This document shows positions 36,444 to 39,972 of a stretch of 64,000 nucleotides of DNA, one piece after another. The first letter of the stretch is position 1, and each line of letters opens with the position of its first letter. This stretch comes from Gemmatimonadales bacterium (lineage in GTDB: Bacteria; Gemmatimonadota; Gemmatimonadetes; Longimicrobiales; Gaopeijiaceae), in contig REBS01000067.1 in the NCBI GenBank assembly GCA_007692605.1, positions 1-64,000 of the forward strand. Reading direction: 5' to 3'. The notes under the pieces were generated by a model. It worked only from the letters and a program-made list of their open reading frames with translations. It did not search any database and was not told where the DNA came from. A program made the translations under genes and the position numbers.

Positions 36444-37736
36444 TCAGCCCCGAGGCGAATTCTCTGGCGTAAAGGCCTTCCACCCGATATCGGATCGGAA
36501 GGTCTTTCCCTCGAATTCGATCGCGCGCGCTCCCTTCAGGCTTCGGGCGCGGGCTTCCTCAAGGTCTGCTCCGAGGCCGACCACCGAGAGAACCCTCCCT
36601 CCGGAGGTGACGGGTCCGTCCTCGCCCTCGACGGTTCCGGCGTGGAAGATCAGGAGGTCCGGATCCTGGGTGAGTTCCTCGGGGATGGTGATCGCCCGTC
36701 CGGTTTCGTAGGGGCCGGGATAGCCCTCGGATGCGAGCACGGTGTTCAGGGCGGCCCCGCCCCGGAATTCGGGCTCGAAGCCCTCGATGCTTCCCCCCCG
36801 GGCGACGGCGACCAGGAGTTCGAGGAGGGGGGAGTCCATGAGGGGGAGGACGGCCTGCGTCTCGGGGTCTCCGAATCGGCAGTTGAACTCGACCACGCGC
36901 GGGCCGGTTTCGGTGAGCATGAGGCCCGCGTAGAGGAGTCCGCGAAAGGGGGTCGCGGCTCGCTCCATGGCATCGAGGATCGGAAGGTAGATCTCGTCCC
37001 GGACCCGGTCGGTCAGCTCGGGGGCGAGCGAGGGCACCGGGGCGTAGGCTCCCATACCGCCGGTGTTGGGCCCCGTGTCGCCCTCCCCGATCTGTTTGTG
37101 GTCCTGCGAGGGGAGGAGGGGGATCACGTGTCGGCCGTCGGTGACCGCGAACATCGAGATCTCTTCACCCTCCATGAATTCCTCGATCACGATCTCGCGA
37201 CCGGCCGGTCCGAACGCGGCCTCCTTGAGCATCTCCCGAGCGGCTTCGAGGGCCTCCTCGGTCGACGAGCAGACGATCGCTCCCTTTCCCGCGGCCAGAC
37301 CGGAGGCCTTGACCACGAGGGGGGCCTCGTGATCCCGGATATGGGCCTCGGCGTCCTCCCACCGGGTGAAGCATTGGTAGTCCGCCGTGGGGACTCCGGA
37401 CCGCTTCATCAGCTCCTTCGCGAAGGCCTTCGACGACTCGAGCCGGGCGGCGGCGGAGGTCGGCCCGAAGAGGGGAAGGCTTCTCTTGCGGAAGATGTCG
37501 GCGATCCCGTTCGCGAGGGGGACCTCGGGGCCGACGATCGTCAGGTTGATCTGGGCGCCCTCCGCCCAGGTCGCCAGGCCCTCGACGTCGTCGGAGGCGA
37601 GATCGACGGGATGGGCGAGGGGGGCCATGCCCGGGTTGGGCCGGGTCGCGAAGAACTCGGCGCCGGGCGCATCCTGTTTAAGCTTCCAGAGAAGGGCGTG
37701 TTCCCGCCCACCGTGTCCAATCAGGAGGATCTTCAT
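36444..37736 (-). CDS. purD: Phosphoribosylamine-glycine ligase
   Basis: PurD ligates glycine to 5-phosphoribosylamine in step 2 of purine synthesis. The protein begins MKILLIGHGGREHALLWKL, the family start, which fixes the ATG at 37736 and gives 430 residues. The ATP-grasp core motifs (LVVKASGLAAGKG, FNCRFGDPETQ) are intact. The promoter -10 box ends only about 7 bases before the ATG, so the mRNA may be leaderless. mutM follows after 28 bases. Confidence 0.95.
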   Translation of the reverse strand: MKILLIGHGGREHALLWKLKQDAPGAEFFATRPNPGMAPLAHPVDLASDDVEGLATWAEGAQINLTIVGPEVPLANGIADIFRKRSLPLFGPTSAAARLESSKAFAKELMKRSGVPTADYQCFTRWEDAEAHIRDHEAPLVVKASGLAAGKGAIVCSSTEEALEAAREMLKEAAFGPAGREIVIEEFMEGEEISMFAVTDGRHVIPLLPSQDHKQIGEGDTGPNTGGMGAYAPVPSLAPELTDRVRDEIYLPILDAMERAATPFRGLLYAGLMLTETGPRVVEFNCRFGDPETQAVLPLMDSPLLELLVAVARGGSIEGFEPEFRGGAALNTVLASEGYPGPYETGRAITIPEELTQDPDLLIFHAGTVEGEDGPVTSGGRVLSVVGLGADLEEARARSLKGARAIEFEGKTFRSDIGWKAFTPENSPRG

Positions 37737-37743
37737 GGCCCCA

Positions 37744-37772
37744 AGAGTAGAACAGCGCCGGCAGAGTGTCAA
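37744..37772 (-). promoter_or_regulatory. Putative purD promoter, possibly driving a leaderless mRNA
   Basis: On the minus strand a perfect TTGACA (37767-37772) and TACTCT (37744-37749) are separated by 17 bases. The -10 box is 7 bases from the purD ATG, so transcription would start at or next to the start codon. The TTGACA lies in the loop of the hairpin at 37753-37788. Confidence 0.45.
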
Positions 37773-37788
37773 AGCTCTGCCGACGCTG
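37753..37788. terminator. Long hairpin between the universal stress gene and purD
   Basis: CAGCG-C-CGGCAGAG pairs with CTCTGCCG-A-CGCTG: 13 base pairs with a single mismatch and an 8-base loop. On the minus strand it is followed by TTCTACTCTT, so it can terminate transcription from the universal stress gene. It also overlaps the purD promoter. Confidence 0.5.
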
Positions 37789-37811
37789 GGAGGGGCTGCC
37801 GGACCCGAGGG

Positions 37812-38690
37812 TCAGGACTGCAGCTCTCGAACGGACCGGGATCGCTGGGTCGCGCGCGGCGGGCTGGCCCGCCGCAGGGCGGGGCTCGAGGTTGGGGTGC
37901 GGCGGCGCCCATCCCTGAGGAGCAGCGTCGAGCAGGGTGCGGTCCAGACGGTGGTGCGGGCCGCGCTCGATGAGATTCCCGTGGCATCGTCGGGGCCGCG
38001 TCCGTCGATGATCAGGAGGTCCACTTCACCCCTCCGAGCCTCGCGATCGACCTCTCGGGGCTGATATCCATGACCGGGAAGGCATGGGACGACCGGGATC
38101 TCACCCGAATCCAGGGCGAACGACGCGAGCAGGGGCCACTCTGGCGTGGGGTCCGACCCGGGCGATGCGGCGGGGCCGGCCGAGGCGATCAAGGCGCGGG
38201 CGGGCCGATGTCCCGAGGGTGTGCTGAATTCACGGGCATATCCGCCGCCGCCTTTGCGCACCAGTAGGGTCGAGGCCGGTGAATCCTGCAGGAGGGCACG
38301 GGCCACGGTGCCGAGCTCGAAGAAGGGCGTCGCACCGCACCCCTTGGCTCCGGCCACCACCAGATCGTAGCGAATGGACACGGACCGCTCGACCACGAGT
38401 CGAACCGGATCACCACTGAGTTCGACGGACTCGATCGTGAGCCCGGGGTTGGTGAGTTCCCGGCGGGCCTCGAGCAGCCAGTCCTCGGGCGTCGAGCAAC
38501 CGGGAAGCTCCGCGGCGACCGGGTGGAATCCCCGCGCCCTGGGGCGAATCATCCCATCTCCCGACATCGCCGTGGGGCGAACTGCGACGACATCGATTTG
38601 AGCGGCCACCTCGTGATGCAGCAGGTTGTTCAGGAAGCGCGCGGCTTCCCGGGCGTAGGACGAACCGTCTGTGGCGAGGAGGACTCTCAT
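37812..38690 (-). CDS. Universal stress protein with a degenerate second half
   Basis: The 292-residue protein begins with MRVLLATDGSSYAREAA, the USP ATP-binding start, and its first 145 residues carry LVVAGAKGCGATPFFELGTVARALL, the glycine-rich nucleotide motif of the family. The second half keeps only traces of a USP fold (EVDLLIIDGRG near residue 235) and ends in an Arg/Ser-rich tail. The ATG at 38690 is favoured over a longer frame to 38813. Its role is a general stress or nucleotide-sensing one, not further defined. Confidence 0.82.
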   Translation of the reverse strand: MRVLLATDGSSYAREAARFLNNLLHHEVAAQIDVVAVRPTAMSGDGMIRPRARGFHPVAAELPGCSTPEDWLLEARRELTNPGLTIESVELSGDPVRLVVERSVSIRYDLVVAGAKGCGATPFFELGTVARALLQDSPASTLLVRKGGGGYAREFSTPSGHRPARALIASAGPAASPGSDPTPEWPLLASFALDSGEIPVVPCLPGHGYQPREVDREARRGEVDLLIIDGRGPDDATGISSSAARTTVWTAPCSTLLLRDGRRRTPTSSPALRRASPPRATQRSRSVRELQS

Positions 38691-38874: not shown

Positions 38875-39972
38875 CTACCAGCCCGCCCCGGATCCGCCAC
38901 TCCCCTTCAGGTTGTCGAAGAGGGAGTCGCGCATCCGCTTCGCAGCCGTCGCCAGGTCATCGACGAAGTCCCGGGCCTCCTGCCGGTAGGCCTGAGCCGC
39001 GTCGGACAGATCCTCGACATATTCCGGCTCCGGGTCGCCCCGGCGGGGATACTCGCCGCGGAGGATCCGGTCGTACTCTCCGGACTCGATCCAGCTTCGA
39101 AGCTCTCCCACCCGGAGGACGAAGAACGGGTGAGTCGTACCCAGCAGGTTGAGAACCTTGAACACCGAGTCTGCGACGTCTTCGCTCTCGCGGTAGGCCT
39201 CGGCCTGTTCGATGAACGCGTCGAGGTTGGTGTCCTCGGGACGTCCGCCGCCCGCCATCTTGAGCATCGTCCGGAAGACGACCTCGGGATCCTGGACCCC
39301 GAGCAGTCCGGCCCGATCCGAGGAGAGCTCGCTTTTCCGGTACCACTCGAGGAGCGCGACCAGCACCGCCCTGGCCGCCAGCCCCACCAGCGGGAAGCCT
39401 CGCTCGGCCAGCTGGATCAGGAGGACCATCATGGTCCGGTAGAGGACATGCCCGCTCGCGATGTGCCCCACCTCGTGCGCGAGTACATACCGCAACTCGT
39501 CGTGGTCGAGGAGGTTCACCGTCCCGGAGTTCAGGATCACGAATGGGCGCTCCATCCCGTAGGCTCCGGCATTCACCATCGGAGTCTGCGACACGAAAAG
39601 CGGCACCTCCCGGGGAGCGTCGAGCGTTTCGAGGACCTCGAGGTGGAGAGCATGAAGGCGGGGAAACTGCCGGGCTGAGACCTCTACCGCGTTGGCCTGG
39701 AAGGCCAACCGGATCGGCTTCTCACCGAAGAACCCGAAGAGCCTCTTGAGGACCTCGTCGAATACCGGAATCGCACGAAGGGCCGTGAGGGCCGCCCGAT
39801 CCGCCGGGTGCTCCCACGCCCGGGGCGAGATCCCGGGGAGCGGGCGGGGTCGGGGTCGGCCGCCGGGATCGCCGGGACCGGAAGGCCCGCCCGATCCCGG
39901 GGGAATGGGACCGCCGCCGGAGTCGCCGGGCGCGGTTGGATCCCAGGGGGTGTTCGGGCCATGATCGGTCAT
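38875..39972 (-). CDS. M48-family metallopeptidase (HtpX/Ste24-like)
   Basis: The 365-residue zinc peptidase has the motif HEVGH (H166, E167, H170) and the third ligand Glu215 in SELSSDRAG. Hydrophobic helices flank the catalytic part (about 180-210). The first 48 residues are Gly/Pro-rich, and no N-terminal membrane helix is seen, which differs from HtpX itself. HtpX-type proteases remove damaged membrane proteins. The ATG has a GAGGAG ribosome binding site, and the predicted ECF promoter P3 lies about 65 bases upstream, which supports a stress role. Confidence 0.85.
   Translation of the reverse strand: MTDHGPNTPWDPTAPGDSGGGPIPPGSGGPSGPGDPGGRPRPRPLPGISPRAWEHPADRAALTALRAIPVFDEVLKRLFGFFGEKPIRLAFQANAVEVSARQFPRLHALHLEVLETLDAPREVPLFVSQTPMVNAGAYGMERPFVILNSGTVNLLDHDELRYVLAHEVGHIASGHVLYRTMMVLLIQLAERGFPLVGLAARAVLVALLEWYRKSELSSDRAGLLGVQDPEVVFRTMLKMAGGGRPEDTNLDAFIEQAEAYRESEDVADSVFKVLNLLGTTHPFFVLRVGELRSWIESGEYDRILRGEYPRRGDPEPEYVEDLSDAAQAYRQEARDFVDDLATAAKRMRDSLFDNLKGSGGSGAGW

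Follow-up and report, generated by a model that had tools for sequence, protein, structure and literature searches.

The start of purD in a Gemmatimonadota genome raises the question of whether one short sequence can both end the transcript of an upstream gene and begin the next at, or beside, its start codon. The window analysed here is a 64,000-nucleotide stretch of contig REBS01000067.1, part of a MAG of 3.55 Mb. Its minus strand carries, in 5′ to 3′ order, genes for a Cys/Met PLP enzyme, an M48 peptidase (38875..39972, from Pfam), a universal stress protein family member (usp, 37812..38690, from the gene call and Pfam Usp), the phosphoribosylamine-glycine ligase PurD (36444..37736, from its translation and Pfam GARS_N, GARS_A and GARS_C) and a formamidopyrimidine-DNA glycosylase. 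The usp and purD genes are co-directional and 75 nt apart, the usp stop codon ending at 37812. Since residues 1–100 of PurD align to positions 1–100 of the GARS_N profile, the assignment of the ATG at 37736 as the purD start codon is firm. The gene is 97% identical to purD of SLBA01000018.1, the nearest named record. In most relatives examined (tblastn on the upstream regions) the M48 peptidase lies directly upstream of purD; within the 1500 nt upstream that were examined, a usp relative was found between the two in no genomes other than the three of the window’s genus, and outside this genus the nearest upstream gene detected was mostly that for the M48 peptidase or the PLP enzyme.

Read along the minus strand from 37788 to 37734, the junction has the sequence CAGCGTCGGCAGAG-CTTTGACA-CTCTGCCGGCGCTG-TTC-TACTCT-TGGGGCC-ATG. 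A sequence-only reading of the window had proposed that a promoter of the form TTGACA-N17-TACTCT ends 7 nt upstream of the purD ATG, and this layout is indeed present, with the −35 box at 37767..37772 and the −10 box, which fits the pattern TANNNT, at 37744..37749. Both GCTTTGACACTC, at the −35 box, and CTACTCTT are invariant across the three genus genomes, namely that of the window (G000), its nearest relative (G001) and a third species (G002), and the −10 box is identical in all three. A simple promoter scanner lists nothing at purD because it requires four of six matches at the −10 position, and TACTCT matches TATAAT at three of six. When the 75-nt intergenic region was subjected to 20,000 dinucleotide shuffles, a TANNNT box fell 4–9 nt before the end in 352, and none had a TTGACA 16–18 nt upstream of such a box.

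To place this layout in context, 98 genomes (including the window’s own) were searched; a PurD match at E ≤ 0.001 was obtained in 97, some of them weak, and 90 upstream regions were readable. It can be seen that a TANNNT box 5–9 nt before the purD start is present in 24 of the 53 genomes of the same family and in one of the 37 outside it, whereas none of the eight remaining 5-nt bins, which extend to 44 nt, holds such a box in more than one family genome, although related genomes are not independent observations in these family counts. Of the 24 family boxes, 10 end 6 nt and 13 end 7 nt from the start codon, and these 23 are spread over 13 genera; TTGACA is matched at five or six positions in 10 of the 23 leaderless-type genomes. 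Outside the family TANNNT is commoner farther out, at 35–39 nt in six and at 40–44 nt in eight of the 37 genomes, a position suggesting a leadered message. The sister family, at the level of order, also looks leadered; its members (for example, at loci L140, L129, L133 and L123) have a purD that begins with GTG and a TTGATC...TATCAT about 40 nt upstream. Counting against the leaderless reading, 29 of the 53 family genomes lack TANNNT 5–9 nt before the purD start. Nonetheless, because the −10 box lies only 6–7 nt upstream, transcription should begin at the ATG or next to it, and on the basis of the 7-nt distance in the window and the 6–7 nt spacing in the 23 family genomes we predict a start at 37736..37737 on the minus strand. 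These comparisons give good support to the claim that purD is leaderless in the window’s family.

The absence of a Shine-Dalgarno sequence does not discriminate between the two types of message, because such motifs are rare in the relatives too: GGAG, GAGG or AGGA at −18 to −5 was found in none of the 23 leaderless-type genomes, in four of 27 other family members and in four of 37 others. Three upstream proteins were tested, and in the genomes that allowed one of them to be placed, 20 of 35 had the box when the upstream gap was at least 60 nt, and one of 12 when it was smaller (Fisher p 0.006, not corrected for relatedness). Scarcity at short gaps is as expected if a purD packed tightly behind its neighbour is transcribed by read-through from it. 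This distribution also bears on the proposal that purD is not leaderless at all but is read together with usp from a promoter further upstream, TACTCT being nothing other than part of a T-rich tract. The orientation and 75-nt separation of the two genes would suit co-transcription, as would the failure of the scanner to list a promoter. However, the 6–7 nt spacing of TANNNT is kept in genomes that have no hairpin, for example G002, G028, G031 and G037, and together with the gap comparison this makes co-transcription highly improbable.

We consider next the hairpin that surrounds the −35 box (37753..37788, minus strand; 5′ arm 37788–37775, loop 37774–37767, 3′ arm 37766–37753). It had been described as a 13-bp stem with one mismatch and TTGACA in its loop; the stem has 13 Watson-Crick pairs plus one G-T, 14 pairs in all, and TTGACA forms the last six bases of the 8-nt loop CTTTGACA. 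The surrounding 61-nt region folds with −29.1 kcal/mol (z −3.4), a stability not equalled in any of 200 shuffles. On its 3′ side the hairpin is followed, again as proposed, by a T-rich tract, TTCTACTCTT (37743..37752), which overlaps the −10 box. This tract is imperfect, with four T in its first eight positions, and a simple terminator scanner lists nothing at purD because it asks for five T in eight. Across the window’s own genome sample, a best hairpin with at least four T in the next eight positions was found in seven of 132 regions after stop codons, the one upstream of purD included, compared with 0–2 in shuffles and none of 44 in a divergent control; stems of at least ten pairs were modestly enriched at the same positions (20 of 132 versus 13–16 in shuffles). 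A search of window positions 37500–38000 against Rfam gave no match to a riboswitch, 6S RNA or other structured RNA at E up to 1, and a known RNA of this kind was rejected on that result.

Between G000 and G001 there are three substitutions in the hairpin, and all 14 pairs are kept: an A-T pair is replaced by G-C through a change on each side, and a T-G becomes T-A, with loop and −10 box identical, a covariation that comes from this one species pair. The third species, G002, keeps the promoter and has no comparable long hairpin, so that the older and constrained part is probably the promoter, with the long hairpin confined to two of the three species. That the hairpin might be a palindrome arisen by chance about a genuine leaderless promoter would be consistent with its absence from G002, and stems of at least 14 pairs arose in 12 of the 20,000 shuffles of the intergenic region, a frequency that is not trivial on the scale of a genome. 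On the other hand, pairing is preserved between G000 and G001 and such hairpins are enriched at the purD junction of the family, and we regard chance as a very unlikely explanation.

The enrichment is seen when terminator-like hairpins within 120 nt of purD are counted across genomes. They are predicted in 15 of the 53 family members, compared with 0–3 in ten shuffles, one in a coding control and one of 37 genomes outside the family. In nine leaderless-type genomes (sorted by eye) the stem or the T-tract reaches the −35 or −10 position. Four of these, G000, G001, G019 and G049 (two genera), have a stem that covers the −35 position and the spacer and a T-tract that extends to the −10, and among them only G000 and G001 have TTGACA at −35; the remaining five, G005, G040, G015, G047 and G050 (three genera), have the T-tract on the −35 position. 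Three further leaderless-type genomes (G008, G043 and G021) carry a terminator further upstream, G030 and G044 have terminator-like hairpins close to the ATG and no TANNNT box, and G051 passes the hairpin rule only because the T’s of its −35 box are counted. At L112 (G047), L136 (G015), L126 (G035) and L157 (G050), a CGCCCC or CACCCC block together with eight consecutive T lies on the −35 position, and these blocks belong to leaderless-type purD promoters of three genera; for that of G035 the hairpin rule found no matching 5′ arm. The proposal that terminator and promoter share one sequence thus gains comparative support, all of it at the level of sequence.

These comparisons also bear on two further accounts of the hairpin, each of which accepts the leaderless promoter as real. 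In the first, the dyad serves as an operator whose arms bind a dimeric repressor that covers the −35 box. The arms flank this box symmetrically, and in the last 75 nt before purD of G021 (L141) a 9-pair dyad with a 14-nt loop, identified by eye and by folding, lies around the −35 position; its sequence is unrelated to that of the window, and the terminator-like hairpin of this genome is a separate one further upstream. However, the dyad of the window is no commoner than a reversed control in the three genus genomes (7 versus 9 places, 4 versus 10 and 6 versus 12), and the loop motif occurs without mismatch once per genome in G000, G001 and G002, with one further one-mismatch place in G000, so that no regulon is seen; both a repeat family and a regulon operator were rejected on these counts. 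The arms, moreover, differ between G000 and G001 yet still pair, G002 has no dyad, and G019 and G049, which belong to one genus, carry quite different hairpin sequences at the same place, a divergence that favours structure over sequence. An operator is therefore distinctly unlikely.

In the second account the hairpin does not terminate transcription, and either stabilises the 3′ end of a processed usp mRNA or simply blocks purD translation on read-through RNA. The weak T-tract would be in keeping with this, and either role could be played by a strong stem placed 16 nt before the ATG. On the other side, the hairpins at the same place in G005, G015, G040, G047 and G050 are followed by longer T-runs, as those of terminators are, and we consider a non-terminating hairpin rather unlikely. 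Termination of the usp transcript by the hairpin is likely, and the best reading of the junction appears to be that the terminator of the upstream gene has been laid over a conserved leaderless promoter. More specifically, purD of this species and its nearest relative probably has a leaderless promoter of the housekeeping type, overlaid by the intrinsic terminator of usp. The TTGACA-in-loop form was seen only in these two genomes and, judged by the comparison, is a trait of two close species within a wider tendency of the family to squeeze a terminator into the space of the purD promoter.

We next addressed whether this type of promoter occurs elsewhere in the genomes. In the window’s own genome the pattern TTGAC-N17-19-TANNNT-N6/7-ATG is found at five places and its reversed control at none. 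The frames behind the five ATGs are purD, one of 323 aa, a MarR-like frame, one of about 100 aa and one of only about 33 aa, and of these purD, the 323-aa frame and the MarR-like frame look like genes. From reading their translations rather than from a database, we take the 323-aa frame to be argC-like and the other to encode a MarR-type regulator. The argC-like gene lies at G000:C140:22832-23800 on the minus strand. Among four of the eight loci listed for it (L217, L218, L219 and L224), G000 and G001 have TTGACC-N16-TATGTT ending 6 nt before the ATG, G031 has TATAGT 7 nt before the likely ATG, and the −10 of G002 does not fit TANNNT. This gene is a second candidate for leaderless expression in the family, and its comparable layout suggests that purD is probably not alone.

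On a wider scale, 23 family genomes together gave 421 matches to TTGAC-N17-19-TANNNT-N1-14-ATG compared with 88 to the reversed pattern, with G016 left out; this genome showed the opposite, with 23 matches versus 43 reversed. Among the matches listed (eight genomes, G016 again excluded) the −10 box ended 5–8 nt before the ATG in 68 of 127. The sample from the window’s own genome, where the gene caller was crude and starts are uncertain, had TANNNT 4–8 nt before three of 130 starts with a gap of at least 35 nt (0–1 in control bins) and Shine-Dalgarno-like motifs before 44 of 130, versus 20 at a control position, which does not show leaderless initiation to be the main mode of this genome. Nine strict promoter-like sites were found in the same sample, one of them that of purD. 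Nor was a T-tract on a leaderless promoter seen as a genome-wide habit: CCCCTTTT-N10-22-TANNNT-N6/7-ATG had five matches in 11 chosen genomes, four of them at purD itself, and the reversed control had none.

Taken together, the layout suggests the following sequence of events. The housekeeping polymerase would initiate at or beside the A of the purD ATG, giving a leaderless mRNA that would be translated from its 5′-terminal AUG. In G000 and G001 the −35 box would double as the terminator loop, the 3′ arm as most of the spacer and the T-tract as the −10 box, so that usp RNA would end within the T-tract, releasing at the purD promoter any polymerase that comes from usp. On any RNA that reads through, purD would stand 16 nt behind a strong hairpin and have no clear Shine-Dalgarno motif; little PurD would be expected from it, and purD output should accordingly depend on its own start. 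Re-initiation at purD after release and blocking of the promoter by upstream traffic are equally possible. A broader proposal holds that the family keeps a terminator-promoter composite before purD in two registers, one with the T-tract on the −35 position and the other with the stem over the −35 and spacer and the T-tract reaching the −10, and that polymerase delivered to, or blocking, the purD start would couple purine synthesis to upstream transcription. We regard this idea as a tentative one of fairly low probability.

Deinococcus-Thermus and Actinobacteria are established as having leaderless genes with a TANNNT motif next to the start, as described in parts of PMC3160421, PMC12340547 and PMC3898074, and in M. 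tuberculosis the portion of PMC3898074 consulted gives TANNNT as centred 7–12 bp before the transcription start. The purD gene resembles these in having TANNNT a few bases before its ATG. It differs in also having a consensus −35, TTGACA, and in belonging to the phylum Gemmatimonadota. In the sample from the window’s own genome, leaderless starts do not seem to predominate. A GC-rich stem directly after usp, followed by a T-rich tract, is what intrinsic (Rho-independent) terminators have, whereas the imperfection of the tract, and the coincidence of loop and tract with the −35 and −10 of the next gene, set the purD junction apart from them. According to the sections of PMC7957599 that we consulted, E. 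coli polymerase released after intrinsic termination stays on the DNA and can reinitiate nearby, with an efficiency that depends mainly on distance; by analogy with these single-molecule experiments, polymerase recycling would be only a possible consequence at purD. In Epsilonproteobacteria a 6S RNA lies upstream of purD, as outlined in part of PMC3847290, unlike the window’s purD, which has no Rfam 6S RNA counterpart. The literature search, which took in part of PMC10783764, gave no report of leaderless genes in Gemmatimonadota; the string ‘Gemmat’ is absent from the main text of both PMC3160421 and PMC12340547, the latter describing, in its consulted part, a scan across the bacterial domain, with its supplement outside the scope of the search. 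In literature listings on terminators that overlap promoters we recognised nothing like the purD arrangement.

The purD junction lends itself to asking whether polymerase that a terminator has released starts again on a promoter at almost no distance from it. The purD data constitute comparative evidence for leaderless genes in Gemmatimonadota, and they point to very tight packing at a gene boundary: stop signal, promoter and message start may all be provided by about 50 bp.
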